From the NCBI GenBank assembly GCA_027449025.1, contig DAIDMK010000001.1, positions 62,001 through 126,000 of the forward strand: a stretch of 64,000 nucleotides of DNA. Direction: 5' to 3'. Below the pieces are notes generated by a model. The model saw nothing but the letters and a program-made list of their open reading frames with translations. It did not search any database and was not told the DNA's origin. Positions 9,514 through 50,572 of the stretch are shown here, one piece after another; positions within the stretch are counted from its first letter, which is position 1; every line of letters starts with the position of its first letter. The translations under genes were made by a program, and so were the position numbers. This DNA is from Lutibacter sp. GTDB lineage: Bacteria; Bacteroidota; Bacteroidia; Flavobacteriales; Flavobacteriaceae.

Positions 9514-9518
9514 TTAAA

Positions 9519-10073: not shown

Positions 10074-10101
10074 CACTTTTACTAAGATAGAATTTAAAAA
10101 T

Positions 10102-11415: not shown

Positions 11416-11442
11416 AATCATAAATATAATATAGATAAAGAG

Positions 11443-11474: not shown

Positions 11475-11480
11475 TATTTG
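11473..11480 (+). promoter_or_regulatory. -7 box of a separate coxBA promoter
   Basis: TATATTTG is a perfect TAnnTTTG element, 29 bases before the coxB ATG at 11510. It directly abuts the T-run of the act operon terminator, so coxBA appears to be its own transcription unit. Confidence 0.6.
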
Positions 11481-11509
11481 ACATTACTATAACTACTATC
11501 TAAAAAAAC

Positions 11510-12517
11510 ATGACTGCATTATTTTATATTTTACTCGTAATTGCAATAGGTATTGCAATGTGGCAAATAATAAGTATTTTTAATTTGAAAGGCGTAATTG
11601 CCACAGAAAAGGATAACAATACCCAAGGAATTTTATTTGCGATTTTTGGAATTTTCTTTTACGGATTAATGATATTTTCATTTTGGAAATACTCTGTGAT
11701 TCTGTTGCCTGAGTCCGCTTCTATTGAAGGTGCTCGCATTGATAATTTGTATGTGGTAACAATGTTACTTATTTTATCTGTACAGGCAATTACCCAATTC
11801 TTATTGTTTTATTTCGCTTTTAAATACCGTGGAATAAAAGGAAGAAAGGCATTGTTTTATGCGGATAGCCATAAATTAGAAATGATTTGGACCATTATTC
11901 CAGCAGTTGTTCTTGCTGGTTTGGTGCTTTACGGACTTTCAGTTTGGAATGATGTTATGGATGCTTCTGATGCAGATAACCCTTTAATTGTTGAATTATA
12001 TGCCAAACAATTTCAATGGGAAGCCCGGTACGCTGGAGCCGACAATGAATTGGGGCGAGCCAATGTGCGCAATATAAAAGGGATCAATACAATGGGAGTT
12101 GATATGACCGATAAAAATTCAATCGATGATATTCCAACCAGAGAATTGCATTTACCAAAAGGGCGACAAGTTATTTTTAAGTTTCGATCTCAAGACGTTT
12201 TGCATTCCGCATATATGCCACATTTTAGAGCGCAAATGAACTGTGTGCCAGGAATGGTGACCCAGTTTTCTTTTACGCCAAATATGACTACACAAGAAAT
12301 GAGAGCTAATAAAAAAACCATCGCAAAAGTTGAAGGGATAAATAAAATAAGAGCAGAAAAAGGTGAAGATATTTATGAATTTGATTATTTACTTCTTTGC
12401 AACAAAATTTGTGGCGCTTCACATTACAATATGCAAATGAAGATTATTGTTGAGGAAGAAACTGCATTTAACAGTTGGTTAAGCGGTCAAAAAACAATTG
12501 CTGAAGTTGTACAATAA
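11510..12517 (+). CDS. coxB: Cytochrome c oxidase subunit II (CuA domain)
   Basis: 335 aa. Three N-terminal hydrophobic helices (one more than the usual two) precede the periplasmic cupredoxin domain. The CuA site is intact: a histidine in DVLHSAYMPHFRAQMNCVPG and the CNKICGASHYNM block, which fits C-x3-C-x3-H-x2-M. There is no fused cytochrome c domain, which fits direct electron delivery by alternative complex III. Forms the aa3-type terminal oxidase with CoxA encoded 33 bases downstream. No coxC follows in the window. Confidence 0.93.
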   Translation: MTALFYILLVIAIGIAMWQIISIFNLKGVIATEKDNNTQGILFAIFGIFFYGLMIFSFWKYSVILLPESASIEGARIDNLYVVTMLLILSVQAITQFLLFYFAFKYRGIKGRKALFYADSHKLEMIWTIIPAVVLAGLVLYGLSVWNDVMDASDADNPLIVELYAKQFQWEARYAGADNELGRANVRNIKGINTMGVDMTDKNSIDDIPTRELHLPKGRQVIFKFRSQDVLHSAYMPHFRAQMNCVPGMVTQFSFTPNMTTQEMRANKKTIAKVEGINKIRAEKGEDIYEFDYLLLCNKICGASHYNMQMKIIVEEETAFNSWLSGQKTIAEVVQ

Positions 12518-12550
12518 AAATTAACTACTACTTACTAAAAAAAATATAAT

Positions 12551-14302: not shown

Positions 14303-14314
14303 AAATTAAAACAT

Positions 14315-14359
14315 AAAATACAAAGACTTTTCAATTTTTTTGAAAAGTCTTTGTATTTT
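14315..14359. terminator. Strong bidirectional terminator between coxA and the FemAB-like gene
   Basis: TACAAAGACTTTTCAA (14319-14334) pairs perfectly with TTGAAAAGTCTTTGTA (14340-14355) around a five-T loop, with flanking A-run and T-run, so it can serve both convergent genes. Confidence 0.85.
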
Positions 14360-14362
14360 GGG

Positions 14363-15466
14363 CTAATTGCTTAGTTCATGCATTTTATATAATTCATAAA
14401 TTTTATGATTATATGGATAATCCCAACACCCCATTCTATGAAATAAATTACCACCAAACCCTTTTTTGTAAATATGAATGCCACGGAGTGGATGTTTTTG
14501 ATCTAAATTGGGAGCGGAACCAAACATATCATATTTTGAACAACCCAGATTTTTAGCCATTTTTATAGATTCCCATTGAAGCGCATAACTTGCCATTAAA
14601 TCTTTATTATTGGAAGAAGAAGCACCATATAAATAAATAGCTTTTTTATTGGATAACACTAAAAACATTGATGCTAAAAAAGCGCCATCCCTTTCAGCCA
14701 TAAGCATTTTTACATTGACGCCACTTTTAGTATTATCTTGATTTTTTATTATAGAAGAAAAGTATTCCTTATGTTGCATTGGAAGGCCTTGTCTTATTGC
14801 TGTTTCTTTATATAAGTTATACCAATTATCAATTTGTTCAATACCATATTCCTTTACTTGAATTCCTTTTTTATGTGCGTTTCGAATGTTATACCTAGTA
14901 TTATATCTCATATTGTAGAGTAAATCCCTTTCCTTTAATGATAAATCTAAAAAGAAAGTATTTTTAGGAAGTATATCTCTAGGACTCTTTTTTAAGTTCC
15001 AATTTTCAGTTTTAAAATTAACTCTAAGCTCTTGAATTTCACTCTGTGGAGGTCCAATCCAATTACCAGTTTCGTCAAAATGATCATCTTCAACTGCCCA
15101 TTGGTTTTGCCACATTAGGTCATATCGAATAAAAACACAATTTGAAGGAAGCTGCAATTTTAATATTTCTGATAGTTGTTCCAAAAACACACCGTGATTT
15201 TCAAAATCTGGCTCTAATTCTGGACCATACGGAACATAAGCATAACAAAGGTTTGCATCGATATATTTTATTAAAACTAAGATATCATCATTTACCGTTA
15301 TTGATGAAGATGTGGAATTGTAAATTAAATCTTTTGAAACGGTTAATTCAAATCCGCAAGGTATAAACCCTTGTTTACTTTTTAATCGCCCCCAAAAGGT
15401 TGTTTGTGGTAGAATATTTGTCGGTCTAATTTCTTCAATTTCTTTCTTCTCTAAACTACAAATCAT
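14363..15466 (-). CDS. FemA/FemB-family aminoacyl-/acyltransferase (GNAT fold)
   Basis: 367 aa. The N-terminal part (QTTFWGRLKSKQGFIPCGFE) and the C-terminal half (MLMAERDGAFLASMFLVLSNKKAIYLYGASSS..., LGCSKYDMFGSAPN, HPLRGIHIYKKGFGG) match the FemAB/FmhB family of tandem GNAT domains. In Gram-positives these add amino acids from aminoacyl-tRNA to the lipid II stem peptide. In Bacteroidetes the same fold is widespread and its acceptor is usually unknown, so a cell-envelope acyl or aminoacyl transfer role is the safe reading. Monocistronic; convergent with coxA. Confidence 0.82.
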   Translation of the reverse strand: MICSLEKKEIEEIRPTNILPQTTFWGRLKSKQGFIPCGFELTVSKDLIYNSTSSSITVNDDILVLIKYIDANLCYAYVPYGPELEPDFENHGVFLEQLSEILKLQLPSNCVFIRYDLMWQNQWAVEDDHFDETGNWIGPPQSEIQELRVNFKTENWNLKKSPRDILPKNTFFLDLSLKERDLLYNMRYNTRYNIRNAHKKGIQVKEYGIEQIDNWYNLYKETAIRQGLPMQHKEYFSSIIKNQDNTKSGVNVKMLMAERDGAFLASMFLVLSNKKAIYLYGASSSNNKDLMASYALQWESIKMAKNLGCSKYDMFGSAPNLDQKHPLRGIHIYKKGFGGNLFHRMGCWDYPYNHKIYELYKMHELSN

Positions 15467-36075: not shown

Positions 36076-36106
36076 TTTGGAAAATTAAAATAAATAATTA
36101 CATTTA
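36076..36106 (+). promoter_or_regulatory. Promoter of the tetR-led operon
   Basis: TTTG (36076-36079), 19-base spacer, TACATTTA (36099-36106), one mismatch from TAnnTTTG. Start site expected near 36112, inside the palindrome at 36108-36125. Confidence 0.6.
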
Positions 36107-36107
36107 C

Positions 36108-36125
36108 TGACTGAGTGATTAGTCA
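36108..36125. promoter_or_regulatory. Putative TetR operator
   Basis: TGACTGA-GTGA-TTAGTCA is an 18-bp imperfect palindrome (6 of 7 arm positions) placed directly downstream of the -7 box and over the expected start site, nine bases before the tetR ATG. That is the position of an autorepressor site. Confidence 0.6.
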
Positions 36126-36133
36126 ATAATAAA

Positions 36134-36700
36134 ATGAATACAGGAAACTTAAAAAAAGACAAGAAAAACGCCAAGCAACAAATTTTAAATGTTGCCTTAG
36201 AAATGTTTGCATCGCAAGGGTATCATAAGACCTCAACTGGAGCAATTTGCAAAGAAGCCGGTATATCTACGGGCTTGTTATTTTATCATTTCTCTTCTAA
36301 AGAGATTTTGTTAAATGCTATTGTAAAAATGATACTTTCAAAAATTGATCGGACTTTGGATTATCCAGAAAATGACGATCCTAAAAAGGTGTTGTCAACC
36401 ATTATTGATGTGTTCTTTAATTCTTTACAAAATGACAGAAAATATTGGGATTTGTACATGTCTTTACTGTACCAACCTGATACAAAAGATCAAATTGGAA
36501 AAGGAGTTTTAGAACATTCAATTAAATACCGAAGAACTATTTTTCATTTGATGGAATCTTTGGGATCTACCAACCCAAAAGGAGATTCATTTGAGTTTGA
36601 AGTATTTCGTGTAGGTGTTTTTGCTTCGTATTTAGCCAATCATAACGAAGAATTGTTAAAGAAAGCTAAAGAAAAAATGAGATTAAAGTATTTAGAATGA
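36134..36700 (+). CDS. TetR/AcrR-family transcriptional regulator
   Basis: 188 aa. N-terminal helix-turn-helix: KQQILNVALEMFASQGYHKT and GAICKEAGISTGLLFYHFSSKE (residues about 15-60), typical of TetR; the C-terminal ligand domain is not recognisable. It is the first gene of a nine-gene run and has a palindrome over its own start site, so it likely represses the operon until an intermediate, perhaps an acyl-CoA as in FadR-like TetR members, releases it. The ligand is inferred. Confidence 0.9.
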   Translation: MNTGNLKKDKKNAKQQILNVALEMFASQGYHKTSTGAICKEAGISTGLLFYHFSSKEILLNAIVKMILSKIDRTLDYPENDDPKKVLSTIIDVFFNSLQNDRKYWDLYMSLLYQPDTKDQIGKGVLEHSIKYRRTIFHLMESLGSTNPKGDSFEFEVFRVGVFASYLANHNEELLKKAKEKMRLKYLE

Positions 36701-36728
36701 ATTATTAATTAACCAAACATTTATTATT

Positions 36729-39179
36729 ATGAATCAAAAAATTTTAACTTTCCTGCTTATTTTTTTTATTTCAGGAGTGATTTTCGCACAAGGCGGAATT
36801 AAAGGAACGGTTGTGGATGAATCTGGAGCAGCTATTTCACAAGCCGAAGTTTTTATTAAAAGTACCAATCAAGGAACCATCACCAATAATAAAGGTGAGT
36901 TTGAACTTAATAATGTAAAAAATGGAACTTTCACTCTTTCTGTTATTTACATCGGTTATGTAACCGTTGAAAAAAATGTCACTATTAACAATAATGTAGT
37001 AAACCTAGGGATAATTACCTTAAATAGCAGCTATCAAGTATTTGAGGAAGTTGTTGTATCCGGGTCTCGAAAAATGGAAAAAATAACCCAAGCGCCAGTT
37101 ACAATAAACGTAATTAGCGCAAGACAATTGGATAATTTTGCGGGTGATCCAAGCGAATTAATTGCTCAGCAAAAAGGAATTGACTTTATTAAAACTGGCG
37201 CATTTGTTAGTGGGTTTAATATTCGCGGATTTAATTCTGCATTTAATCCAAAAATGTTACAATTGGATGACAACCGTTTTTCTACACTTATTGCAACAGG
37301 TTTGCCATTTGGACCGCTTAGTTCAATCATAAAGGAAGATATTGAAAGGGTAGAGATTGTTTTAGGACCATCATCTGCTTTATATGGGCCAAATGCACAC
37401 AACGGATTGGTAAATACCATAACAAAATCTCCTTGGAAATATGAAGGAACGGAAATTGTTTTAGGAGCTGGTTCTTATGATGCTTTGAGCGCTCGTTTTA
37501 GGCACGCCAAAATATTGAGTGAAAAATGGGCTTATAAAGTAACAGGAGGTTATGCCGAAGGAACTGATGTGAATTGGACAGACTCAGTATATGTATATAA
37601 CCCAGCAGTAGCGAAACCTGAATTGGAACTCGACAGGAAATCAGAATTTTTAAAAGCAGAAGCGTCTGTTTACTACAAACCAACAACAGACAGTGAGGTG
37701 AAAGCTATTTACGGAACAAGTAAAAGTAGCTATTTGGCTGTAACAAATGTTGGAAGAAATCAAATTAAAGATTGGGGGATTCAATTTTTGCAAGGGACAT
37801 ATACTTCAAAACGCCTTTTTGCACAACTTTATAAAACTTGGAGTAATACGGATGATACTTATGCTATTACTACACGTACTGAAAATTATTGGAATTTAAT
37901 TAAAGCAGGAAAAACGCATGAGGAAGCCTTAGTTGGCTCGTATGGAGGAATCAATCCGCCAATTTTTGTTGACAAATCAGACCGTCTAAATGCTGAAATT
38001 CAGTATAATAACAGCATTGGAGCTTTAGATTTTATAATTGGAGCACAATATCAAAAGGATAAAGCAGACAGTAGAGATACATATTTGATAGATGCTACTG
38101 GTCCTATAGAAATTGAACAAAAAGGATTATACGGACAATTGGAATATAAAATAGGGGAATCAGGCGTGAAATTAATTGCGGCAGCTCGTGGTGATGATCA
38201 CGATTTATATGGATTCAATTTTATTCCAAAGGCTGGGATTACCTATACTGTAGATAAAGGAACTTGGAGATTTACGTACGGAAAAGGAATCGCCTCGCCT
38301 ACAATTTTAAATTTAAGTGGTGATTTGTTCGGTGGAATTATTTTAGGTAATGGGGTAGGATTTACCCTGTCCGATGGCACTAAAATTAAGCCAGTGGAAG
38401 TAGAGACCATTCAAACTTTAGAATTGGGTTATAAGGGTTATTTATCAGAAGGTAAATTATTTGTGGATGCAAACGCCTACTATAATATGTCTGAAAATTT
38501 CTTAAGCCCACTTACCAATATTGTACCAACAGGATTGTCTGGCGGACCAGTGGTAACACACCGTGGAGACCAACCTATTGAAGAGTTAACGGCTGGTTTG
38601 GCGCCAGGATATTATGATGCTGGAGGCTATATTTTAACCTATTTAAATTTTGGAAAAGTTGATACTTATGGATTTGATCTTGGCTTAACCTATTACTTTA
38701 ATGAGTATTACAACATGACACTTAATTATTCGTTTTTTGATTATAATATGGATAAAAATGATATGGCTAATGATGGTGATAGAAATGGCGTTGTTAACGT
38801 GTTGGATTTACCTATAAATACTCCAAAGAATAAAATTAGTTCTGCTTTTAACTTTTCCCGTAATAAATTTTATGGATCCTTATTATCTCGCTATATTCAA
38901 AAGTATGATTTCTTTTCAGGAAGAAATGTGGCTGCTAAAACCAATACCGATTTAATAATTGGAGGTGATCCTGTTGTTGAAGGACAACGTGTGGGGAAAA
39001 AATTTAATTACGGTCAGTTAGGCGGTTTCTTCTTAAGTGTAAATTTAGGCTATAAAATTAGCGACCATTTTTCTTTAGGTGCTTATATTAATAATATTTT
39101 AGATGCTAATAATTATGAGTTCGTGGCTTCACCACCAAGTGAAAGAACTTATGGTGCCGAATTGAAAATAAAATTATAA
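36729..39179 (+). CDS. TonB-dependent receptor with carboxypeptidase-like regulatory domain
   Basis: 816 aa. Signal peptide ending VIFAQG, CarboxypepD-reg-like domain (about 22-105, IKGTVVDESGAAISQAEVFI), plug (GSRKMEKITQAPVTINVIS, FNIRGFNSAF, VEIVLGPSSALYGPNAHNGLVNT) and barrel to a C-terminal YGAELKIKL. No SusD gene adjoins it, so it is a receptor for a small or oligomeric ligand rather than a SusCD glycan porter. It follows tetR by 28 bases; the downstream enzymes suggest an ester or hydrophobic acid as cargo. Confidence 0.9.
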   Translation: MNQKILTFLLIFFISGVIFAQGGIKGTVVDESGAAISQAEVFIKSTNQGTITNNKGEFELNNVKNGTFTLSVIYIGYVTVEKNVTINNNVVNLGIITLNSSYQVFEEVVVSGSRKMEKITQAPVTINVISARQLDNFAGDPSELIAQQKGIDFIKTGAFVSGFNIRGFNSAFNPKMLQLDDNRFSTLIATGLPFGPLSSIIKEDIERVEIVLGPSSALYGPNAHNGLVNTITKSPWKYEGTEIVLGAGSYDALSARFRHAKILSEKWAYKVTGGYAEGTDVNWTDSVYVYNPAVAKPELELDRKSEFLKAEASVYYKPTTDSEVKAIYGTSKSSYLAVTNVGRNQIKDWGIQFLQGTYTSKRLFAQLYKTWSNTDDTYAITTRTENYWNLIKAGKTHEEALVGSYGGINPPIFVDKSDRLNAEIQYNNSIGALDFIIGAQYQKDKADSRDTYLIDATGPIEIEQKGLYGQLEYKIGESGVKLIAAARGDDHDLYGFNFIPKAGITYTVDKGTWRFTYGKGIASPTILNLSGDLFGGIILGNGVGFTLSDGTKIKPVEVETIQTLELGYKGYLSEGKLFVDANAYYNMSENFLSPLTNIVPTGLSGGPVVTHRGDQPIEELTAGLAPGYYDAGGYILTYLNFGKVDTYGFDLGLTYYFNEYYNMTLNYSFFDYNMDKNDMANDGDRNGVVNVLDLPINTPKNKISSAFNFSRNKFYGSLLSRYIQKYDFFSGRNVAAKTNTDLIIGGDPVVEGQRVGKKFNYGQLGGFFLSVNLGYKISDHFSLGAYINNILDANNYEFVASPPSERTYGAELKIKL

Positions 39180-39202
39180 TATTCCATTTATATTTGTTAA
39201 TT

Positions 39203-39236
39203 AAGAACATCGGTTGTTTTTGCCGATGTTCTTTTC
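39203..39236 (+). terminator. Hairpin with short T-run between the TonB receptor and the hydrolase (attenuator-like)
   Basis: AAGAACATCGG (39203-39213) pairs with CCGATGTTCTT (39223-39233), an 11-bp stem, then TT-C. Because genes of the same pathway continue 25 bases later and no perfect promoter follows, it may give partial termination, setting a high receptor-to-enzyme ratio. Confidence 0.65.
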
Positions 39237-39257
39237 TAAAAACTTCACAATAACTTT

Positions 39258-40097
39258 ATGACGCATCGCTTTGTAAAAGCCAATGGTATTTTACTTCATT
39301 ATCTGGAGAAAAACAACAAACTTAAGCCAACCGTAATTTTGTTGCACGGGTTAAGCGCAAATGCCAATTCATTTGAGAGTTATATGAAGCTATTGAATAA
39401 TTACAGCATAATTTCAGTTGATTTAAGAGGTAGAGGTTTAAGTGAAAAACCTAACAATGGTTATTCTATGCAGGAGCATTCAAAAGATATTATTGAATTA
39501 ATGAATGCTTTAAAAATTGATAAAGCAATATTGGTAGGTCACTCTTTTGGAGGATTACTGAGTGTTTATTTGGCAGTGAATTTTCCTGAGCGTATATCAA
39601 AAATAATTTTGATTGATGTGGCTGCAAAAATGCATCCGGAAGTTAGAGAACTAGTAACACCTTCTGTTATGAGTCGACTAAAAAAAACTTGGAGTACGTA
39701 TGATGAATACATTACAAATATGAAAAAAGCGCCTTTTTTACAAGGGCAATGGTTGCCAGAAATGGAATCCTTTTATAAAGCTGATTGCAAAGAAACTAAT
39801 AATGGTATTGAGTCAAGATCAAATTTCAAGCACATTCAACAAGCAGTTGAGGCTGTTTTAAATCCTGATATTCATTGGGAAGAACTAATCACTCAAATTA
39901 AACAGCCTTCAATTGTTATAAATGGAACAGAACCTTTTGTGAATAATCAGGTGTTGGTTTCAAAACAACATGCAATGGAAACAGTTAATATGATGCAAAA
40001 TTGCAGGTATGTTGCAGTGGTAGGAAACCACGTAACCATGTTATTTGGTGAAGGGGCGAAACAAACTGTTTCGGCAATTACAAAATTTATAAACTAA
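39258..40097 (+). CDS. Alpha/beta-fold hydrolase
   Basis: 279 aa without a signal peptide, so cytoplasmic. LLHGLSANANSFE (oxyanion), VDLRGRGLSEKP, nucleophile elbow VGHSFGGL with S96, and a late NHVTMLFGEG histidine: a complete Ser-His-Asp-type hydrolase. It probably cleaves an ester (or a C-C bond of a diketone) after import. Between the TonB receptor and a symporter gene, 5 bases before the latter. Confidence 0.87.
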   Translation: MTHRFVKANGILLHYLEKNNKLKPTVILLHGLSANANSFESYMKLLNNYSIISVDLRGRGLSEKPNNGYSMQEHSKDIIELMNALKIDKAILVGHSFGGLLSVYLAVNFPERISKIILIDVAAKMHPEVRELVTPSVMSRLKKTWSTYDEYITNMKKAPFLQGQWLPEMESFYKADCKETNNGIESRSNFKHIQQAVEAVLNPDIHWEELITQIKQPSIVINGTEPFVNNQVLVSKQHAMETVNMMQNCRYVAVVGNHVTMLFGEGAKQTVSAITKFIN

Positions 40098-40102
40098 AAA
40101 AA

Positions 40103-41611
40103 ATGACTTTAGCTTGGATACTTTTTACAATATATTTACTGGGAACTTCCTATTTAGGCTGGATTGGTTATAAAAAAACGGATGGATTTAGCAGTTTTGC
40201 CATAGGAAAAGGAGATATGTCTCCAATTGTTGTGGGAATTACCTTAGCCGCAAGCACTGCTTCAGCAGCAACTTTTATTATAAATCCCGGATTTATTTAT
40301 GTTGATGGATTATCGGCATGGATAAATATGTTTTTAGGTACCTACTCTGGATTTATGATTATGCTTATTATTTTATCATTTAAGTTTAGGTCTATTGGTG
40401 AAAAAATGAAAGCACTAACTATTCCAGATTGGATTGGCAAACGCTATCAATCCAAAGGTTTTTCTTTGTATTTCGCCTTTATTAATTTATTGTCTTTTGC
40501 ATTTGTAGTATTGTTGGTAGGCGGAATTTCTATAGTTATGCAAAAACTGCTTGGTGTAAATAACATAACAGCACTATTAATTACGTTAATATTTGTTACA
40601 GGTTATGTTTTTTTGGGCGGAACTTATGCCCACGTTTATACCAATATGTTTCAAGGAATTTTAATGATTATAGCATCGGTAGCAATCTTATGGACTGGAA
40701 TTGAGCTGATAATGGAAACCCATAATCCCGGATTTTGGGAGCTAATTTCACAGGAAGATGCTAACTTACTAAAACTTATAAATCCTGAAGGGAAATTGTT
40801 TAACGATTTTTTCTCAACCTATATTGCAGGATTATTTATCGGAGCGGCCTTGGTGTGTCAGCCTCATATTTTGACAAAAGCTTTGTATGTAAAAACAAAT
40901 AAGGATGTACGAAATTATATTATTGTAGTTGGTATTGTACTTATGATATTTCTATTGTTGGTTTCTGCTGGTTTCTTTGCGCATGTTGTTGTTGACCCAG
41001 CGCAGTTAATAGATGCTTCAACAGGAGAGTTTAGGCAAGATTTGGTAATGACGGTTTATTTAATGAATGTTTTTCCCGATTGGAGTTTTACATTGGTAAG
41101 CATCGTGATGTTAGCTGCTGCTATGTCAACTTTGGATGGTTTGCTAGTGAGTATTTCCACAATTACAGCCAATGATTTAGTTATCAATTTAATTGATAAA
41201 TTCAGTAAAAATAAAATGCCGGAAGAACAAAAAATGAAATTGGCATTTAGGGCAAGTCATGTGGTACTTGTGGTAATAGCAGTTTTGGTTTTTGTGGTTA
41301 ACATAAATCCGCCGAAATTACTAGGTATTTATGGTCAGGTTGGTGTTTACGGATTGGTTTTGGCAACTTTAGCACCTTTATTGGTTGGTGTTTTGCTAAA
41401 AAATTCTCCTATAAAACTGGTGTGGGCAGCCTCAATTCTTGCTGTAACCATTCACTTTGTTTTATACTTTTTTGGAAATGAATTATTTCCAGACTTTGGG
41501 TTTACGTATGCAAATCCTTCTGTAACAGCCACCCTGTCAATTATTATCGTTATTTTCCCTACTTTAGTAATAGCTTGGTTAATTAACAAAAAAATATTAA
41601 AAAATGAATAA
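40103..41611 (+). CDS. Sodium:solute symporter (SSS family)
   Basis: 502 aa with about thirteen helices. Sodium-site region ITLAASTASAATFIINPGFIYVDGLSAW and the helix-8 segment MLAAAMSTLDGLLVSIST (conserved Ser/Thr) are typical. Family members import sugars, proline, pantothenate or monocarboxylates. The acyl-CoA-type enzymes around it favour a carboxylic acid. Overlaps the thiolase gene by 8 bases. Confidence 0.88.
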   Translation: MTLAWILFTIYLLGTSYLGWIGYKKTDGFSSFAIGKGDMSPIVVGITLAASTASAATFIINPGFIYVDGLSAWINMFLGTYSGFMIMLIILSFKFRSIGEKMKALTIPDWIGKRYQSKGFSLYFAFINLLSFAFVVLLVGGISIVMQKLLGVNNITALLITLIFVTGYVFLGGTYAHVYTNMFQGILMIIASVAILWTGIELIMETHNPGFWELISQEDANLLKLINPEGKLFNDFFSTYIAGLFIGAALVCQPHILTKALYVKTNKDVRNYIIVVGIVLMIFLLLVSAGFFAHVVVDPAQLIDASTGEFRQDLVMTVYLMNVFPDWSFTLVSIVMLAAAMSTLDGLLVSISTITANDLVINLIDKFSKNKMPEEQKMKLAFRASHVVLVVIAVLVFVVNINPPKLLGIYGQVGVYGLVLATLAPLLVGVLLKNSPIKLVWAASILAVTIHFVLYFFGNELFPDFGFTYANPSVTATLSIIIVIFPTLVIAWLINKKILKNE

Positions 41612-42785
41612 AAATGTTCACATTATCGGCGCTTATAACACAAAATTCGGCAATCTTAAAGAAGAAACCATTTATAGTTTGTATGAAGAAGCCGCCAAAG
41701 GCGCCATTAAAGATGCAGGTATTGATATTACGGAAATAGATGCGGTTTTTGTTGGTAATTATAGCGGTGGAAGCTTTAACAATCAGGAACATATTGCGCC
41801 TTATGGCGTAAATATTTTGCCTGAACTTCGCTTTAAGCCAATGTACAGAGCTGAAAATGCTTGTGCTTCGGGCACTTCTGCCGTTCATATGGCCGAAATG
41901 GCCATCAAATCGGGAAAAGCAAAAAAAGTGTTGGTGGTTGGTGTAGAAAAGATGAATTCTTTAGATACTAAAAATACGTCACTTGCCCTTGCAAAAGCCT
42001 CTTACTGGGAAAAAGAAGGTGCTTTGGGCTATACATTTCCTGGTTTATTTGCCGAATATGGAAAAGGATGGATGAGCCATTATGGCTATTCGTTGGAACA
42101 ATTACAAGAATATTTAGCAGAAATAGCGTCAAAAGCATATCATTTTGGAAGTCAGAATCCTTTAGCGCATTTGCAAAAAGCACGCAGTAAAGAAGAACTT
42201 TTAAATTTACCAGAAGAAAAAAATCCAATGATTGCTTATCCATTGCGTTTGCACGATTGTTCGTTGATTTCCGATGGAGCAGCAGCCGTAATTTTATCGG
42301 CGGAAAAAACAAATAATTCAGTAGAAATAGTTACGACAAGTGCGGCGAGTGATTATTTAAATATAGTAGATAGCAAAAGAAATAATTATTTTCTTGACGG
42401 CGCTGCTGAAGCAACAAAAAGAGCTTTTCAACAGGCTAAAATGACGATTGATGATATTCAAATTGCTGAGGTTCACGATTGTTTTACCATTACGGAATTG
42501 TTAATTTATAGCGCTATCGGATTGACAAAAAAAGGGAATGAATTTGAAGCCTTGTTAAATAAAGATGTTTATTTAGGTGGAAGATGTGTTGTAAACCCAT
42601 CAGGTGGATTAAAATCAAAAGGGCATCCAGTTGGTGCAACGGGTGTTTCTATGCACGCATTGTTGCACAAACAACTTACAAACAATGCCATTGGCGTGCA
42701 GGTAAATAATGCCAATGCAGCTTTGGTGTTAAATATTGGGGGCTCAGGAGCAACAAATATGGTTTCAATTTTAAAACGCAGTTAA
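41604..42785 (+). CDS. Thiolase-family acetyl-CoA acyltransferase (SCP2-like)
   Basis: 393 aa. Nucleophile C87 in RAENACASGTSAVHMA, EVHDCFTITELL with the second catalytic histidine, and GGLKSKGHPVGATGVSMHA, all intact. The SCP2/thiolase-like subgroup (HDCF motif) acts on branched or unusual acyl-CoAs as well as acetoacetyl-type substrates. Together with the ligase and SDR it fits degradative cleavage of a 3-oxoacyl-CoA. Coupled to the symporter gene; 20 bases before the KAS III-like gene. Confidence 0.87.
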   Translation: MNKNVHIIGAYNTKFGNLKEETIYSLYEEAAKGAIKDAGIDITEIDAVFVGNYSGGSFNNQEHIAPYGVNILPELRFKPMYRAENACASGTSAVHMAEMAIKSGKAKKVLVVGVEKMNSLDTKNTSLALAKASYWEKEGALGYTFPGLFAEYGKGWMSHYGYSLEQLQEYLAEIASKAYHFGSQNPLAHLQKARSKEELLNLPEEKNPMIAYPLRLHDCSLISDGAAAVILSAEKTNNSVEIVTTSAASDYLNIVDSKRNNYFLDGAAEATKRAFQQAKMTIDDIQIAEVHDCFTITELLIYSAIGLTKKGNEFEALLNKDVYLGGRCVVNPSGGLKSKGHPVGATGVSMHALLHKQLTNNAIGVQVNNANAALVLNIGGSGATNMVSILKRS

Positions 42786-42805
42786 TAAAACTACAAAACA
42801 GAAAT

Positions 42806-43792
42806 ATGAGAAATGCGAAAATAATAGGCTCGGGAATGTATGTGCCAAAAAAGGTGATTCCCAACAGTTATTTCAATGAAATTTTGCAGGAAGACGTTGA
42901 CACTTGGTTGCGCGAGAATGTACAAATTTATGAAAGACGTTGGTGTGCTGATGATGAATCTACGGCCGATTTATGTGTAAATGCAGCAAAAGAAATATTA
43001 AAAAATGCCAAGGTAAAAGTTGAAGATTTGGATTTAATAATTATATCGACGGATACGCCTGAATATATTTCACCTTCTACTGCATCCGTGGTGCAAGACC
43101 GATTGGGAGCGGTAAATGCGGGGACTTTTGATTTAAATTCAGCTTGCTCAGGCTTTGTGACTGCATTGGATGTGGCGGCGAAATATATTCAGGCTGATGA
43201 AAATTATAAATATATTTTGGTGTTAGGAGCTTATGCCATGTCGAAACACTTGAATAAAACGGATAAAAAAACGGTTACCTTGTTTGCTGATGGTGCTTCG
43301 GGTGTCATTTTAAAATCAGATAAAAGCGGTGCCGGAATGTTGGCATCACAATTAAAAACGAAAGGAGAATACAGCAGTTGGATGGGGATTTACGGTGGTG
43401 GAACACACAGTCCAACAACGGAAGCAAGTCTTAAAAATGGCGATCATCGATTAAAATTCGTTAAAAAATTCCCGAAGGAACTGAATTCTGTCATTTGGAG
43501 CAACATGATTATAGATTTGTGTAAGCGCATAAATCTAACCCCACACAATATTGATCATTATTTTATTACGCAAATAAATATAAACAGCATCAAAGAAACT
43601 TTGGACATTTTAGGTGTTGGAATGGATAAAACAACCACCATTATGCACAATTACGGCTATACGGGATCGGCTTGCATTCCAATGGCTTACCACGAAGCTA
43701 TTCAAAAAAATAAAATTAAAGAAGGCGATACGGTATTATTTATAGGTTCTGGGGGCGGATTGGCTTTTGCAGGCACAATTTTTAAATTATAA
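42806..43792 (+). CDS. Ketoacyl-ACP synthase III-like protein lacking canonical His and Asn
   Basis: 328 aa FabH fold. The nucleophile region LNSACSGFVTALDVAA keeps C114. At the place of the FabH motif PHQAN this protein reads ITQIN (T255 for His), and at GNTSAAS it reads GYTGSAC (Y285 for Asn); the terminal glycine loop GSGGGLAFAG is kept. With no decarboxylation pair it is unlikely to condense malonyl-ACP and is more likely an acyltransferase, thioester-transfer or non-decarboxylating enzyme. Sits between thiolase and acyl-CoA ligase, so acts on CoA thioesters rather than in fatty-acid synthesis (inference). Confidence 0.85.
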   Translation: MRNAKIIGSGMYVPKKVIPNSYFNEILQEDVDTWLRENVQIYERRWCADDESTADLCVNAAKEILKNAKVKVEDLDLIIISTDTPEYISPSTASVVQDRLGAVNAGTFDLNSACSGFVTALDVAAKYIQADENYKYILVLGAYAMSKHLNKTDKKTVTLFADGASGVILKSDKSGAGMLASQLKTKGEYSSWMGIYGGGTHSPTTEASLKNGDHRLKFVKKFPKELNSVIWSNMIIDLCKRINLTPHNIDHYFITQININSIKETLDILGVGMDKTTTIMHNYGYTGSACIPMAYHEAIQKNKIKEGDTVLFIGSGGGLAFAGTIFKL

Positions 43793-43799
43793 ATTAATA

Positions 43800-45305
43800 A
43801 TGGAAGTTTGGCAACAGGATTGGATGGCAAAGTGGGCGGTTTATTCGCCTCATAAAATTGCTTTAAAGGAATATGAAACTGGAAGTACACTAAGCTATTT
43901 ACAGTTGAATTTGTTAGGCAATAAATTGTCATTTTACCTAACCGAACAACTGAATTTGATAAAAGGTGATCGTATTGCATTTGTTGCCGAAAATTGTTTG
44001 GAATATTTGTTGTTTTTTGTGGCTGCACAAAAAACAGGTATTATTTTAGTTCCTTTAAATTATCGATTAACCACAACCGAATTAAATCATTTAATAGAAC
44101 TTTCAGATCCAAAATTTCTTGTACACGATACTATTTACAAGGAAAAAGTTTCTCAAACGGCATTTTCAAAAAACAAATTGGGCAAAGTTTTTGAAATTAC
44201 CGATTTTTCTAAAATTCTAAATAATCTTGAGAGTAAAAAATACAAGACCGACTTTCCCATTAATATGGTTGATGAAAATCATCCAATTTTTATCTTATTT
44301 ACTTCTGGAACAACGGGAAATCCAAAAGGAGCCTTATACACGCATAAAATGTTGTTTTGGAACAGCATAAACACAGCAATTAGTTTGGTTATCAATACCA
44401 ATACAAAAACCATTAATTGCATGCCGCCTTTTCACACCGGAGGTTGGAATGTATTGGTAACTCCTGTGCTTCACCATGGTGGAAGTTTGGTTATTATCAA
44501 ATCATTTTGTGCTAAAACAATTTTAAATTTAATTGAAGAAGAGCGATTTACTTTGTTTATGGGGGTTCCAACGATGTTAAAAATGATGTCGGAAGAGCCT
44601 TCATTTAAAACAACCGATTTTTCGAGTTTAATGTATTTTATTGTTGGGGGCGAAGCGATGCCAATTCCGTTAATTGAAGCATGGAAAAAGCAAGGTGTTT
44701 TAATTCGTCAAGGTTATGGTTTAACGGAAGTTGGCCCTAATTTAACCTCTTTGCACCAAGATGATGCCATCAGAAAAATAGGATCTATTGGTCGTCCAAA
44801 TTTTTATGTACAAACAAAAATTGTTGATGAAAATGGTATTGAGGTCGGGAAAAATCAGAAGGGAGAATTGTTGTTAAAAGGACCAATGGTTTCACCAGGA
44901 TATTGGAAAAATAAGCAAGCTACCGAAGAATCTTTAAAAGATGGATGGTTTTATACCGGCGATGTGGTTATTAGCGATGAAGACGATTATTTGTTTGTGG
45001 TAGACCGCATAAAAAACATGTATATCTCGGGTGCCGAAAATGTTTATCCGGCAGAAATTGAACGCGTACTTCAAAATCATCCAGGTGTTATAGAGGTTGC
45101 TGTGATTAGCGTGCCTCATGAAAAATGGGGTGAAGTAGGAAAAGCATTTATTGTGACAGCTGAAAAATCGCTTACCGAAAAAGAAATATTGGACTATTGT
45201 CAGTTGAAATTGGCAAAATATAAAATTCCAAAATATATTGAATTTCTTAAAGAGATTCCGAAAAATGATACAGGGAAAATAGATAGAAAATTATTAAAAA
45301 AATAA
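43800..45305 (+). CDS. AMP-dependent acyl-CoA ligase (synthetase)
   Basis: About 501 aa from ATG 43800; the track start (43767) lies inside the previous gene. ANL-family motifs: P-loop-like FTSGTTGNPKGALYTH, RQGYGLTEVGP, YTGDVV (adenine), DRIKNMYISGAENVYPAEIE (hinge and core 8) and the catalytic lysine in NDTGKIDRKLLKK. It activates a carboxylic acid to its acyl-CoA with ATP. Substrate is unknown, possibly a medium-chain or aromatic-like acid by resemblance to fadD/caiC-type sequences. The next gene starts immediately after the stop. Confidence 0.9.
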   Translation: MEVWQQDWMAKWAVYSPHKIALKEYETGSTLSYLQLNLLGNKLSFYLTEQLNLIKGDRIAFVAENCLEYLLFFVAAQKTGIILVPLNYRLTTTELNHLIELSDPKFLVHDTIYKEKVSQTAFSKNKLGKVFEITDFSKILNNLESKKYKTDFPINMVDENHPIFILFTSGTTGNPKGALYTHKMLFWNSINTAISLVINTNTKTINCMPPFHTGGWNVLVTPVLHHGGSLVIIKSFCAKTILNLIEEERFTLFMGVPTMLKMMSEEPSFKTTDFSSLMYFIVGGEAMPIPLIEAWKKQGVLIRQGYGLTEVGPNLTSLHQDDAIRKIGSIGRPNFYVQTKIVDENGIEVGKNQKGELLLKGPMVSPGYWKNKQATEESLKDGWFYTGDVVISDEDDYLFVVDRIKNMYISGAENVYPAEIERVLQNHPGVIEVAVISVPHEKWGEVGKAFIVTAEKSLTEKEILDYCQLKLAKYKIPKYIEFLKEIPKNDTGKIDRKLLKK

Positions 45306-46100
45306 ATGATGAACATAAAAAACAAAGTTGCAGTAATTACAGGAGGCGCCAGTGGAATTGGAGCAGGTGTAGCCATAGAATTGGCTAAATTGGGGGTGAA
45401 AGTTGTTCTTGGAGACATGAATGAAGAAGGCCTTAATGCCAAAGTTGCAGAAATTAGAAAAAATGGAGGAGAGGCCATTGCCGTGAAAACAAACGTTAGT
45501 CAAGAAGCTGATGTCATTAAATTAATGGATACCGCAATAGATACTTATGGTGCCATAAATATTGTAGTGCCTTCCGCAGGAATATTTAGGGATGCATTTA
45601 TGGTAAACCCAGATCGAGAAACGGGAAAAGTATTTAAATCAATGAGTACTTCTCAATTTATGGATGTGATTAATGTAAATTTATTGGGAACATTTTTGAC
45701 TATCCGAGAAGCGTCCATCAGAATGATTGATAACAAGTGCGAAGGGGTGATTTTTACCATTTCTTCCATAAATAAAGAAGGACAATTGGGACAGTTAAAT
45801 TATAGTTCAACAAAAGCTTCAGTAGCTTTATGGCCAAAAATATTGTCCGGTGAGTTTCATGCAAAAAATATTAAGGGAATTCGCGTTGTTGGGATCGCTC
45901 CGGGTTATGTGGAAACACCATTATTATTAGGAATGAGGCCCGAAGTATTGGAGAGTATTGTTAAAGATGTAACCATTGGGAGATTGGTTAAGATTGATGA
46001 AATAGTAAACGCTTTAATTTTTGCGATTCAAAATGATGCGGTTACTGGTACAACGCTTGAAATTACCGGGGGCGTTATTTCACGAGGGCTGGTAAAATAA
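45306..46100 (+). CDS. Short-chain dehydrogenase/reductase
   Basis: 264 aa classical SDR. TGGASGIGAG cofactor loop (12-21), D37 after the second strand (LGDMN), which favours NAD over NADP, NVNLLGT, serines in TISSINKEG and the YSSTK motif (Y166, K170). C terminus EITGGVISRGLVK. It probably oxidises a 3-hydroxyacyl-CoA or other hydroxy intermediate ahead of the thiolase. The start could be 45306 or the next ATG at 45309; it abuts the ligase stop codon. Confidence 0.88.
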   Translation: MMNIKNKVAVITGGASGIGAGVAIELAKLGVKVVLGDMNEEGLNAKVAEIRKNGGEAIAVKTNVSQEADVIKLMDTAIDTYGAINIVVPSAGIFRDAFMVNPDRETGKVFKSMSTSQFMDVINVNLLGTFLTIREASIRMIDNKCEGVIFTISSINKEGQLGQLNYSSTKASVALWPKILSGEFHAKNIKGIRVVGIAPGYVETPLLLGMRPEVLESIVKDVTIGRLVKIDEIVNALIFAIQNDAVTGTTLEITGGVISRGLVK

Positions 46101-46130
46101 ATGATTTCCGTTTTTTAAATTGAAATAAAA

Positions 46131-47096
46131 ATGATTAAAAAAGTTCAAAACATAATTGGGTTATTTTTGTTGTTGACAAGTTTTCAGCTCATTTCCCAAA
46201 ATAATTTGGTCGAAATCACCGACTTTGGGGCCAACAAAGGGAATTTGGAAATGTATGTTTATAAGCCGATAAATAACGATATGGGAGTGCCGTTAGTGGT
46301 AGTTTTGCACGGATGCGTTCAAACAGCAAATGAAATTGCAGAACAAAGTGGGTGGAATAATTTAGCGGATTCTAATAATTTTATGGTTTTGTATCCGCAG
46401 CAAAAAGTGGAGAATAATTTGAATAGATGTTTTAATTGGTATGAAAATGCGGATATTTCAAAGAATAATGGTGAATCTGACACCATAAGAGAAATGATAC
46501 AATATGCTATTGAAAATTTTGATATTGATCCTACAAAAATTTTCGTTTCGGGTATGTCCGCTGGCGGGGCAATGGCCAATGTGCTCTTGGCGAATTATCC
46601 GAATTTATTTGATTCAGGAGCTGTTTTATCAGGAATTCCATTTAAAGCAGCGAATGACATAACAACTGCATATGTGGCGATGCAAGGAAAAATCGAAAAA
46701 ACGAACGAAGAATGGGTGGCTTCAATAGGCAATAATAATCTGAATTATAAAGGGGAATATCCGAAAATCGTTATTTTTCATGGTACTGATGATCCGTTTG
46801 TGAATATAAAAAATGCCGAAATAATTGAAATGCAATGGAAAGGAATCCATAAAATAGCCACCGAACCAACAATAGTTCAAGAATTTAATGGAAATAGTGA
46901 TATTACCCAAACCACCTACTTCAAAAATAATTGTCCGGTTATTGAAAAATACGAAATTAACAATTTAGGCCACGCGATGGCAGTTGATCCTGGTACAGAA
47001 AAACAGCAGGGTGGAAATGTGGCCAAATTTACAGTGGATAAAAACTTTCATACCACTTATTGGGCAGCCAAATTTTTCGGCTTGATAAATGATTAG
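46131..47096 (+). CDS. Secreted PHB-depolymerase-family esterase
   Basis: 321 aa with a signal peptide (to LISQ). Alpha/beta hydrolase with oxyanion-hole HGCVQTANEIA, lipase box SGMSAGGAM (S143), HGTDDPFV (Asp) and NLGHAMAVDPG (His). Matches the esterase_phb/LpqC family, which includes poly(3-hydroxybutyrate) depolymerases, feruloyl and acetylxylan esterases. No type IX sorting domain, so probably periplasmic. As the last gene of the tetR operon it could release acids from a polymeric or oligomeric ester after TonB uptake. Confidence 0.87.
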   Translation: MIKKVQNIIGLFLLLTSFQLISQNNLVEITDFGANKGNLEMYVYKPINNDMGVPLVVVLHGCVQTANEIAEQSGWNNLADSNNFMVLYPQQKVENNLNRCFNWYENADISKNNGESDTIREMIQYAIENFDIDPTKIFVSGMSAGGAMANVLLANYPNLFDSGAVLSGIPFKAANDITTAYVAMQGKIEKTNEEWVASIGNNNLNYKGEYPKIVIFHGTDDPFVNIKNAEIIEMQWKGIHKIATEPTIVQEFNGNSDITQTTYFKNNCPVIEKYEINNLGHAMAVDPGTEKQQGGNVAKFTVDKNFHTTYWAAKFFGLIND

Positions 47097-47153: not shown

Positions 47154-48188
47154 TTAAAACTTTATAAAAAGTTTTTTTGTTGATTCACGTTCAACCAGTT
47201 TCGATTTAACAACTTCGGTTTTAACGTCATCAAACTCAATTTTTCCTTCTAATTTATTTATCAATCTTGTTGCTGCAATTTCACCTGTTGTATGGGCAAA
47301 ACGATTTACGCTGGTTAGTGGCGGTGAGCTGTAACGAGATAAAATACCATTAGTAAGTCCAACAATTGAGACGTCTTCCGGAATTCTGATGACTCTTTTG
47401 TTTAATACTTGTGTGGTTATTGCACTAGAAATCTCATCTGCTGTAAAAAAACCATCTACCTGATGTTTATCTAACATTTTGTGGATTTTCTCTTTAAGAC
47501 CCTCTTCACAATCTTGCCTTATAATTAAACTTTTAACCGGGTTGACATTATGTTTTTCAAGTGCTTTTAAATAGCCTTCAAGGCTAAATTCGCCTAGATT
47601 CTGCCCTTCTGAAGTTGAAACATACGCAATTTTTTCACAAGATGATTTCATTAAAAAACGGGTGGCTTTATAGGCACTTTTCACTAAATCTGTAACTACT
47701 TTATCACAATTTATTTCTTGGGGAACACGGTCATACAAAACAATCGGCGTACCTTCTTCCAAAATATCATGAAAATGGTCAAAATTTCCAATTTTTAAAG
47801 TTTCTTCTGAAATACAGGCAATAAAACCATCAATAGTGCCATTAGAAAGCATTTCCATGGTATCAACTTCTTTTTTATAGGATTCATTTGTGATGCAGGT
47901 AATGATGTTGTAGCCTTTTTCTGCGGCCACTTTTTCAATACCGCGAAGCACTCTGGCAAAATAATAATTTAAAATATTTGGGATAATGATACCTATGGTT
48001 CTTGTTTTTTTATTTTGCAGGCTTAATGCCAATGTGTTGGGCTTGTATTTGTGTAATTTGGCATATTCCTGAATTCTTTTTTTGGTTTCGTCACTAATTT
48101 CATAGCTGTCGTTTAACGCTTTTGATACCGTTGAAATAGAAACCTGCAAAGCCAATGCAATTTGTTTTATGGTGATTCTTTTATTCAT
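47154..48188 (-). CDS. LacI-family transcriptional regulator
   Basis: 344 aa. N-terminal LacI helix-turn-helix ITIKQIALALQVSISTVSKALND and hinge KPNTLALSLQNKKTRTIGIIIPN, then a periplasmic-binding-protein-like effector domain. Its start overlaps the stop of the penicillin-acylase-like gene (ATGA-type, 4 bases), so it is made from the same mRNA as that enzyme. LacI regulators mostly sense sugars; an amidase partner is unusual, so targets may lie elsewhere. Confidence 0.92.
   Translation of the reverse strand: MNKRITIKQIALALQVSISTVSKALNDSYEISDETKKRIQEYAKLHKYKPNTLALSLQNKKTRTIGIIIPNILNYYFARVLRGIEKVAAEKGYNIITCITNESYKKEVDTMEMLSNGTIDGFIACISEETLKIGNFDHFHDILEEGTPIVLYDRVPQEINCDKVVTDLVKSAYKATRFLMKSSCEKIAYVSTSEGQNLGEFSLEGYLKALEKHNVNPVKSLIIRQDCEEGLKEKIHKMLDKHQVDGFFTADEISSAITTQVLNKRVIRIPEDVSIVGLTNGILSRYSSPPLTSVNRFAHTTGEIAATRLINKLEGKIEFDDVKTEVVKSKLVERESTKKLFIKF
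47156..47178 (+). terminator. Possible terminator of the tetR operon, inside the lacI 3' end
   Basis: AAAACTTT (47156-47163) and AAAGTTTT (47168-47175) form a hairpin followed by T residues, 60 bases after the esterase stop and overlapping the last codons of lacI on the other strand. AT-only stem, so weak. Confidence 0.4.
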
Positions 48189-50572
48189 TTTATTGGTGAA
48201 ATTGTTAATTTTGTTGAAACTTTTTTAATTTCTTCTTCATTCATTTTCATTTTTCTAAATTCGCCTTTATTATACATTTCAGCCTGGTCTTTATAATGTT
48301 TACTGAATGGGTTTCCTGATTGTCCCGTCGGTAATATACTAATGCTGTTTTCAATATCGGAGAAATCAATGATTCTTCTGGTTGAAGGCCCTGCGATTAC
48401 CTTATATAATCCAGTGTTATTATAGTCAAAGCTCTGATTGTTAATAACTTCTCTTGCGCCATTTATTGGAAAAGGCCCCACATTAAAGTAGCTTTTTAAG
48501 GCAGCCACATTGCCAAGTGGATGTTTGTGCTCTAAGGTATGAACTTTTTCCCAATTCCATCCTTTTATGTCATTTCGAAGTTGATTTTCTAAAAAAGCAA
48601 CAGCTTCAACCATCGATTTAGATAGGATTTCTTTTCTGGTTTCGATTTTGTTTTTGGTGTTAATATTGTCCCACCAAATTGAACTATCCTTTTTAATTTG
48701 GTCAGCAATCACTCTTTTGGATAAATGGGTGGCTAAAAATTGGTCAAATAATTTTTCTCCTAATTCATCTTCAAAAGTGTTTTTTAAATACAGATAAATC
48801 CATTTGTTATAAATGGTTGGTGCAACTTGGTCAATCGTATTTGAACCATCCCAAAGCTGAAGCACATCAATGGCTTTTTGTTCACTTTTGGAAAAAGAAT
48901 TGTAGTCCATATTTTTGGCAAATTCTTTTATGATGGTTGGAGCTACAGAAGAGGTTACATCATTAATCATAGCCGACATAGATTCCTTGTTCCAGTTATT
49001 TTTTGGCTCTAACAATTGCACAATACGTTTTGCCCGGTCTTCTGATAAATAATAGCCGGGATACAACATTCCTGCAATGGAATCGGGTTGGTTATTAGCG
49101 GAATACACATAATTCCAAGTCGGATTTTCTGCCATTGGATTTTCGCTAAAATCCAAATATTCAATAGGGTCATCATAACCGGAAGCACCATTTAAAATAA
49201 ATTTTGTATTTACATTTGGATTGTGTTTGTATAATTTACCTGATGCCCACCAGGCGACATTTCCTTTAGCATCGCCGTACATAATATTCAATCCGGGCGC
49301 GTGAATCATAGAGGCTCCTTTTTTAACATCTTTCATCTCTGTTGCCCTTGAAATGGTGTAAAGCGCATCTAAAACTTCACCATCAAATTTGGTGTAAATC
49401 CAAGACATCGCAATGGGCTCAGATTGCGTAATTGTTTCAATAGCATCGTTCATAATTGGACCATGACGTGAATTTCTAACGGTGATGGTCACATCCTCAG
49501 CATCTTTTACTTTTATGGTTTTAGTTGTTGTCTTATAAGTTTCAAATCCGTTTGGTGTTTTATATTTTGTTGAATCTGAAGGGTCATTTTCTTCTTTATA
49601 AAAATCAATATCATCATTTTCAAACATGGTTAATCCGTAAGCATAATTTCTGTTATGTCCCAATAAAGGAAAGGGAACACCTGCCAAATGATAGCCATAC
49701 ATTTCATAATCTGGTGTAACAATATGTGCTTCATACCAAACTGCTGGTTGTGAATAGGCAATATGCGGATCGTTTGCAAAAATCACTTTTCCTGTACTGG
49801 TTTTGTTTGGTGAAACTACCCAGCTGTTGCTGCCAATAAATGCAGGAACGGGCGATTTTTCCATAAGCGCATTTACGCTTGAAACCATCGCTGTAAAATT
49901 ATCTAGCGTAGATTTTGAATTTTTTATGATTGTGGTATTCGGACTATAATTGATGTTCAGTTCCTTCAAATAGTCATCACCTAATTTATCTTTGATAACG
50001 CTTAACAACGGATCCGTTTTTTGAGCCATCGCAAAACTGAATGACATGTAGCCCAAAATATTGTAGATGTCCTTAAGTTGATATTGCTCTTTTTCAATGC
50101 CGACCAAAGTAAATTCAATAGGCGTTGGGCCGTTTTCAATAAACTGGTTTACGCCGTTTAAATAAGCAGTTGCCAATTTATAGACTTCACTATTTGTATC
50201 CAATTTTTCAATTGATTTTTTTGAAGTTTCTTCAATGCCCAAACTCGCAAAAAATTGATCGGTTTTAAGCATATCTTTTCCAAAAATTTCCGACAATCTG
50301 CCCGGCGCAATTCTTCGCATTAATTCCATTTGCCAAAGTCGGTCTTGTGCATGAACGTAGCCTAGAGCCGTTGTGGCATCATATTGGTTTTCTGCGTAAA
50401 TATGCGGAATTCCGTAATCATCAAAATACACAGAAGTCTCATTTTCAATTCCAAACAAAGTGATATTGCCCGAATAGTCAGGTTTTAGACTATTAAAATA
50501 CACCCAACCTCCAGCTAAAATTAGGATGATTAGGATTGCAATGATGAGTAATATTTTTTTAAGAAGGCGCAT
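48185..50572 (-). CDS. Penicillin acylase-family N-terminal nucleophile hydrolase
   Basis: 795 aa precursor with one N-terminal membrane segment/signal (residues 5-26). Alpha-subunit-type region with DDYGIPHIYAENQYDATTALGYVHAQDRLWQMEL; autocatalytic cleavage is expected before S248 in IGSNSWVVSPNKT, whose serine becomes the beta-chain nucleophile. Later segments HGPIMND and SANNQPDSI (oxyanion Asn) are typical. Family members cleave amides such as penicillins, acyl-homoserine lactones or cyclic lipopeptides; the natural substrate is unknown. The anchor suggests periplasmic action. Coupled to lacI. Confidence 0.9.
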   Translation of the reverse strand: MRLLKKILLIIAILIILILAGGWVYFNSLKPDYSGNITLFGIENETSVYFDDYGIPHIYAENQYDATTALGYVHAQDRLWQMELMRRIAPGRLSEIFGKDMLKTDQFFASLGIEETSKKSIEKLDTNSEVYKLATAYLNGVNQFIENGPTPIEFTLVGIEKEQYQLKDIYNILGYMSFSFAMAQKTDPLLSVIKDKLGDDYLKELNINYSPNTTIIKNSKSTLDNFTAMVSSVNALMEKSPVPAFIGSNSWVVSPNKTSTGKVIFANDPHIAYSQPAVWYEAHIVTPDYEMYGYHLAGVPFPLLGHNRNYAYGLTMFENDDIDFYKEENDPSDSTKYKTPNGFETYKTTTKTIKVKDAEDVTITVRNSRHGPIMNDAIETITQSEPIAMSWIYTKFDGEVLDALYTISRATEMKDVKKGASMIHAPGLNIMYGDAKGNVAWWASGKLYKHNPNVNTKFILNGASGYDDPIEYLDFSENPMAENPTWNYVYSANNQPDSIAGMLYPGYYLSEDRAKRIVQLLEPKNNWNKESMSAMINDVTSSVAPTIIKEFAKNMDYNSFSKSEQKAIDVLQLWDGSNTIDQVAPTIYNKWIYLYLKNTFEDELGEKLFDQFLATHLSKRVIADQIKKDSSIWWDNINTKNKIETRKEILSKSMVEAVAFLENQLRNDIKGWNWEKVHTLEHKHPLGNVAALKSYFNVGPFPINGAREVINNQSFDYNNTGLYKVIAGPSTRRIIDFSDIENSISILPTGQSGNPFSKHYKDQAEMYNKGEFRKMKMNEEEIKKVSTKLTISPIK

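Follow-up and report, generated by a model that had tools for sequence, protein, structure and literature searches.

Conservation of the locus

What might nine adjacent genes of a marine Lutibacter sp. take up and degrade, and what does a beta-ketoacyl-ACP synthase III (KAS III) that has lost its catalytic His and Asn do among them? The genes lie head to tail on the plus strand, at positions 36134-47096 of a 64,000-nucleotide stretch of contig DAIDMK010000001.1 (hereafter, the window), with intergenic gaps of -26 to +78 base pairs (bp). The original prediction had assigned them to nine families on one strand, and this was borne out by the Pfam/NCBIfam assignments, which returned no SusD among the nine genes. 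The set is best read as one for the uptake of an acid released from an ester and its coenzyme A (CoA)-dependent catabolism. The nine genes are the local version of a wider locus, and the interest lies less in the Lutibacter operon than in that locus and its KAS III, whose catalytic positions read Cys-Thr-Tyr.

A genome-wide scan with the KAS III as bait gave 80 loci, from Saprospiraceae, Lewinellaceae, other Bacteroidota, Ignavibacteriota, Chlorobiota, Calditrichota and Kapaibacteria, and the subfamily was also found on one Chloroflexota plasmid. In Bacteroidota it is present in 57 of the 393 sampled genomes (about one in seven). Among Flavobacteriaceae it is rare (6/301 genomes, the window's own included), and the records nearest to the window's protein (88-97% identity) belong to Lutibacter and to one Flavobacteriaceae. 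Gene neighbourhoods were counted around the KAS III in the 49 loci outside Lutibacter that had sufficient flanking sequence; because these are related to one another and were picked for their similarity, the counts should not be treated as independent. The acyl-CoA ligase was present in 48/49 loci, the short-chain dehydrogenase/reductase (SDR) in 41/49, the sodium:solute symporter (SSF) in 38/49 and the TonB receptor in 31/49. The full set of outer-membrane importer, inner-membrane transporter, alpha/beta hydrolase, ligase and SDR accompanied the KAS III in 36/49. The importer-hydrolase-ligase-SDR setting is widely kept. Conserved synteny had been proposed as the check on the original prediction and, run on KAS III neighbourhoods, it was passed by this core, which supported the idea of one regulated system for import and CoA-dependent catabolism.

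The nine-gene order is intact in three Lutibacter-like loci (L021, L023 and L024), and three others (L020, L022 and L025) end at contig ends and agree as far as they reach. Among the loci as a whole, the content is stable, and the order of the genes has changed on several occasions. The window shares with its relatives the KAS III (60-68% identity), the SSF symporter (61-68%, of Lewinella/Saprospiraceae type), the ligase (50-60%) and the TonB receptor, homologues of which at mostly 42-49% identity occupy the same locus in many Bacteroidota. The cytoplasmic hydrolase and the SDR are just 23-37% identical to their counterparts, and a search for relatives of the hydrolase gave one other match in 297 genomes, with uninformative neighbours. 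The thiolase, TetR and the polyhydroxybutyrate (PHB)-type esterase were added in the Lutibacter version. Two proposals of the original prediction were limited to that version: the two esterases in two compartments, since most relatives have one hydrolase, which its N-terminus usually marks as secreted or as a lipoprotein, and the pairing of KAS III with a thiolase, since the locus of most relatives lacks a thiolase.

The transport genes vary. Where the TonB receptor is missing, its place is often taken by a lipoprotein and a 520-residue barrel, the predicted structure of which (pLDDT 69.9) most resembles AlgE and channels of the OprD type, and the inner transporter may be of the SSF or MFS family or, in the Chloroflexota, an ABC importer. 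Such interchangeable importers around constant enzymes point to uptake and catabolism. On the Chloroflexota plasmid (L100; record CP069395.1, 180 kb, from a cold seep), the KAS III is surrounded by an ABC importer, a CoA-transferase, an SCP2-type thiolase, a DUF35 gene and a hydrolase; given this plasmid location, the module may be mobile. We have also observed a 460-residue TPR-like protein near the locus in 29/49 loci, often beside the SDR (for example, L015 16547-17941 and L095 398-1804).

Catalytic residues of the KAS III

The alignment with FabH placed Thr255 and Tyr285 of the window's KAS III in the columns of the catalytic His and Asn, with the nucleophilic Cys114 kept. The reference was FabH of Escherichia coli; as an independent control we used the FabH of the window's own genome, which reads Cys-His-Asn at these columns. 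Of the 132 homologues with at least 40% identity, 131 had Cys-Thr-Tyr and one had Cys-Ser-Tyr, the Cys being present in all 132. The structure prediction, run without the Chloroflexota row, gave a confident FabH fold (pLDDT 92.9; foldseek TM about 0.9 to FabH). Because FabH, on which the KAS III tree was rooted, forms a very long branch, the tree can be used for its inner groups only.

In FabH, His244 and Asn274 stabilise the enolate that results from malonyl decarboxylation, and Cys112 and Gly306 form the oxyanion hole of the acyl-enzyme (PMC10054515). The subfamily retains the Cys and the glycine-rich loop and has lost the His/Asn pair. Hence, judging from these residues, the Cys-Thr-Tyr enzyme should still take an acyl group on its Cys, and standard decarboxylating condensation is not expected. 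The beta-ketoacyl-ACP synthase function by which general family models label the protein is unlikely because the His and Asn are lost. We would instead propose a role in C-C cleavage or acyl transfer.

A bolder proposal, which we hold tentatively and judge possible though short of probable, is that the Cys-Thr-Tyr KAS III represents a catalytic type that is new to the thiolase superfamily. A fold known from fatty acid synthesis would here serve acyl-CoA catabolism by breaking a C-C (or ester) bond, and the enzyme would be central to a so far undescribed locus for nutrient acquisition, common to Bacteroidota, Ignavibacteriota, Chlorobiota, Calditrichota and Chloroflexota. No description of the gene set or of the Cys-Thr-Tyr change was found in the open-access literature, which omits most subscription journals, and one may exist elsewhere. 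If the KAS III does cleave bonds, this would be a new type of reaction for a textbook family and would open up a widespread carbon source of marine, sludge and hot-spring bacteria. The locus also offers a testable panel made up of the operator, the ligase, the SDR and the KAS III, the last of which yields a clear prediction for mutants.

Three loci (L141, at 13400-14428 with 443 bits, L142 and L145) encode a further KAS III-like protein, PRK06840, whose catalytic columns read Cys-Leu-His; it sits inside the KAS III locus with the ligase on one side and a lipoprotein on the other. As a guide to the substrate it was set aside: its haloarchaeal relatives adjoin branched-chain-type ABC importers in otherwise unrelated surroundings and gave no substrate.

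Proposed pathway and alternatives

With moderate confidence, we read the locus from its gene content as a TetR-regulated catabolic system for an extracellular ester, the acid part of which is or becomes a hydroxy acid; the substrate acid itself is probably a hydroxy acid presented as an ester. In the order of steps that we infer, the TonB receptor would import the ester or an ester oligomer, which would be cut by the secreted esterase (in relatives, the secreted alpha/beta hydrolase) and by the cytoplasmic hydrolase. The SSF symporter would take up the free acid with sodium, and the ligase would convert it to a CoA thioester. The SDR, presumably with NAD, would then oxidise the hydroxyacyl-CoA to a ketoacyl-CoA. 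Finally, the thiolase, the Cys-Thr-Tyr KAS III or both would break the carbon chain to acetyl-CoA, with the KAS III acting as a thiolase-superfamily enzyme in the cleaving or acyl-transfer direction.

The enzymes appear competent for such steps, with the motifs of both hydrolases, the thiolase and the ligase intact. The thiolase has the Cys nucleophile (C87, in CASG), HDCF (H291) and GHPxG (GHPVG from 340) that mark SCP2-type thiolases, together with a Thiolase_C_1 match of 114 bits, and its best PDB match is the acetoacetyl-CoA thiolase 6esq (E 1.4e-56). The SDR, a classical 264-residue protein of FabG type, is topped in the PDB by the (3R)-hydroxyacyl-CoA dehydrogenase 2et6. Most SDRs of the locus set have an Asp after beta-2, a residue that usually goes with NAD preference. 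Thiolases recur in distant loci: the SCP2 type in L131 and L100, each with a DUF35 gene (that of L131 called by reading frame), and the AtoB type, a different family, in several Ignavibacteria loci. What favours the catabolic direction is that importers and hydrolases have been kept alongside the enzymes, that the SDR Asp is of the NAD type, that thiolases recur and that no biosynthetic gene does: neither an acyl carrier protein nor any other was recurrent among the clustered gene neighbours, which comprised open reading frames of at least 90 residues, so that a short carrier could be missed. Three points weigh against this reading. The thiolase is absent from most relatives' loci, where the cleavage step would need the KAS III or an unlinked thiolase; a KAS III beside a FabG-like SDR also fits a biosynthetic cluster; and, in the window, the divergent hydrolase and SDR may have replaced the original enzymes and differ from them in specificity.

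The second of these points leads to the view of the locus as one of acyl salvage or biosynthesis, in which the ligase and a KAS III working with its Cys only would hand an imported acyl group to a carrier or product and the SDR would be a FabG-type reductase. The acylation half-reaction requires just the Cys and its oxyanion hole, both retained, and the KAS III and FabG-like SDR genes are often adjacent; however, what is conserved around them are importers and hydrolases instead of a carrier protein or further biosynthetic gene, and with the NAD-type Asp and the recurring thiolases this makes salvage rather unlikely. The four folds of KAS III, alpha/beta hydrolase, AMP-forming ligase and SDR also co-occur in the OleABCD pathway to beta-lactones and olefins. 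We rejected this pathway as extremely improbable on the catalytic residues and the type of SDR: OleA has Cys-His-Asn, the KAS III lacks the His and Asn and scores 66 bits against 3fk5, which we take to be the Xanthomonas OleA, vs 175 bits against FabH, and the SDR is not of the long OleD type.

As to the substrate, the original prediction had named a polyhydroxyalkanoate (PHA) or hydroxyacid oligomer as the simplest candidate. This would be a special case of the catabolic reading, in which imported oligomers of 3-hydroxybutyrate are hydrolysed and the monomer, once activated, is oxidised to acetoacetyl-CoA for the thiolase to cleave. It is suggested by the esterase, which exceeds the e_dPHAscl_type1 cut-off, by the affinity of the thiolase to acetoacetyl-CoA thiolase, and by a hint from one genome (G653), in which the KAS III locus adjoins the genes for a true 3-hydroxybutyrate dehydrogenase (364 bits against a cut-off of 307) and for a homologue, at 45% identity, of the cytoplasmic hydrolase of the window. 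That is the single genome in 80 with this dehydrogenase; in the window's genome the best match reached 195 bits, below the cut-off. The PHB-type esterase lies outside the conserved core, being found in 1/49 non-Lutibacter loci and there on the opposite strand, and it exceeded the cut-off in 5/40 module-bearing genomes vs 1/40 without the module, three of the five being of one genus. The window's copy (321 residues) is a bare catalytic domain with no substrate-binding domain, and relatives with the same KAS III are expected to share the substrate class. PHA is thus a weak candidate for the general substrate and did not stand in that role; even for PHA or 3-hydroxybutyrate oligomers as a special case, we put the chances as low. 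Lower still are those of a hydroxycinnamate-type aromatic ester, the side chain of which would be shortened by a feruloyl-type esterase, a feruloyl-CoA synthetase-like ligase, the SDR and the thiolase. The closest solved relative of the ligase is indeed the feruloyl-CoA synthetase 8wev (330 bits), and the PDB matches of the esterase include feruloyl and acetylxylan esterases; but the fatty acyl ligase FadD13 scores nearly as high (314 bits), no enoyl-CoA hydratase was found among the nine genes by Pfam/NCBIfam, and we know of no SSF importers that are typical for aromatic acids.

Putative regulatory elements, neighbouring genes and related systems

The palindrome TGACTGA-GTGA-TTAGTCA, at 36107-36124, lies inside the 29-base putative operator block (Table 1), to which TetR would bind. 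The block is identical in all loci that reach upstream of tetR (the window, L021, L023 and L024), with differing flanks, and the palindrome occurs once in the 3.34-Mb genome. The original prediction of one promoter with a TetR-type operator hence held as regards the operator. The single uniform transcript that it implied is made doubtful by the conserved hairpin between receptor and hydrolase (AAGAACATCGG...CCGATGTTCTT, followed by TTTTC/TTTAC), which may be an attenuator, a terminator or an mRNA-processing element and may leave the enzyme genes less transcribed than the receptor gene. Promoter and terminator scans performed no better than chance, so that a presumed single promoter is argued for by the layout and the operator only.

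Table 1. Features of the nine-gene locus and its putative regulatory elements (positions in the window)
Feature	Position	Strand	Evidence
TetR-type operator block (putative), TTTACTGACTGAGTGATTAGTCAATAATA	36103-36131	.	Directly upstream of tetR; same in 4 loci, flanks diverged
TetR-family regulator, presumed operon repressor	36134-36700	+	PF00440 60.9 bits; kept in L021, L023, L024
TonB-dependent outer-membrane receptor, 816 residues	36729-39179	+	PF07715 (Plug) and PF13715 (CarbopepD_reg_2) above cut-off
Conserved RNA hairpin, receptor/hydrolase intergenic	39203-39234	+	Window, L020, L021, L023, L024; -17.2 kcal/mol in window
Cytoplasmic alpha/beta hydrolase, GHSFG nucleophile motif	39258-40097	+	PF00561 86.4 bits; no signal peptide seen
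Sodium:solute symporter (SSF)	40103-41611	+	PF00474 146 bits
SCP2-type thiolase	41604-42785	+	PF22691 and PF00108
Atypical KAS III, Cys114/Thr255/Tyr285	42806-43792	+	PF08545 and PF08541 above cut-off
AMP-forming acyl-CoA ligase	43800-45305	+	PF00501 268 bits
Classical SDR, predicted NAD-dependent	45306-46100	+	PF00106 138 bits; Asp after beta-2
Secreted PHB-depolymerase-type esterase, catalytic domain only	46131-47096	+	NF050058 275 bits vs cut-off 150; signal peptide by inspection of the N-terminus; GMSAG

The start of the ligase is most likely the ATG at 43800, 8 bp past the KAS III stop, with the TTG at 43767 as a possible alternative. Convergent with the operon, a LacI-type regulator and a penicillin-amidase family acylase (PF01804, 718 bits) occupy 47154-50572 on the minus strand, and this pair is also present in L021 and L023. 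Elsewhere in the window, cytochrome c, NrfD and COX1 genes form one run at 2870-14302 on the plus strand, which resembles a cluster for alternative complex III and a terminal oxidase.

With SusCD-type polysaccharide utilisation loci, the window's locus shares a TonB receptor with CarbopepD_reg_2, a secreted hydrolase and a regulator; it differs in having no SusD, in a receptor that scores 81.8 bits against a SusC/RagA cut-off of 368, and in encoding CoA-dependent enzymes rather than glycosidases. The esterase resembles extracellular short-chain PHA depolymerases of type 1 in being a secreted catalytic domain above the curated cut-off, but it has no substrate-binding domain and outside Lutibacter is not conserved with the locus. 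A thiolase of the 6esq family beside a KAS III-type protein recalls the PhlACB and archaeal thiolase/HMG-CoA synthase/DUF35 complexes, the more so in L100 and L131, which have DUF35. For the window this identity was ruled out, and kept as an analogy, by the absence of DUF35 (no PF01796 match in its genome); moreover, the KAS III is not an HMG-CoA synthase (47.8 bits against TIGR00748, cut-off 353) and most relatives have no thiolase. In four Bacteroidota loci (L172, L174, L175 and L176), we have observed a gene for a 348-residue protein with that of an SCP2-type thiolase directly after it, and some of these loci also have a DUF35-like gene; by eye the protein was likened to archaeal-type HMG-CoA synthase, and Pfam gives it just a KAS III C-terminal domain.

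The KAS III itself has the fold, Cys nucleophile and glycine-rich loop of FabH, with about 30% identity, whereas it carries Thr/Tyr in place of His/Asn and is linked to importers and a CoA ligase instead of fatty acid synthesis genes. The steroid aldolases Sal and Ltp2, thiolase-fold enzymes with replaced catalytic residues, Tyr among them, break C-C bonds as steroid side chains are degraded (PMC12329534) and, by analogy, may serve as a thiolase-superfamily precedent for such cleavage in acyl-CoA catabolism. They are of the SCP2 type with YDHF/YDCY motifs, in contrast to the window's thiolase, which has the HDCF of true thiolases, and to its KAS III, which keeps the Cys.

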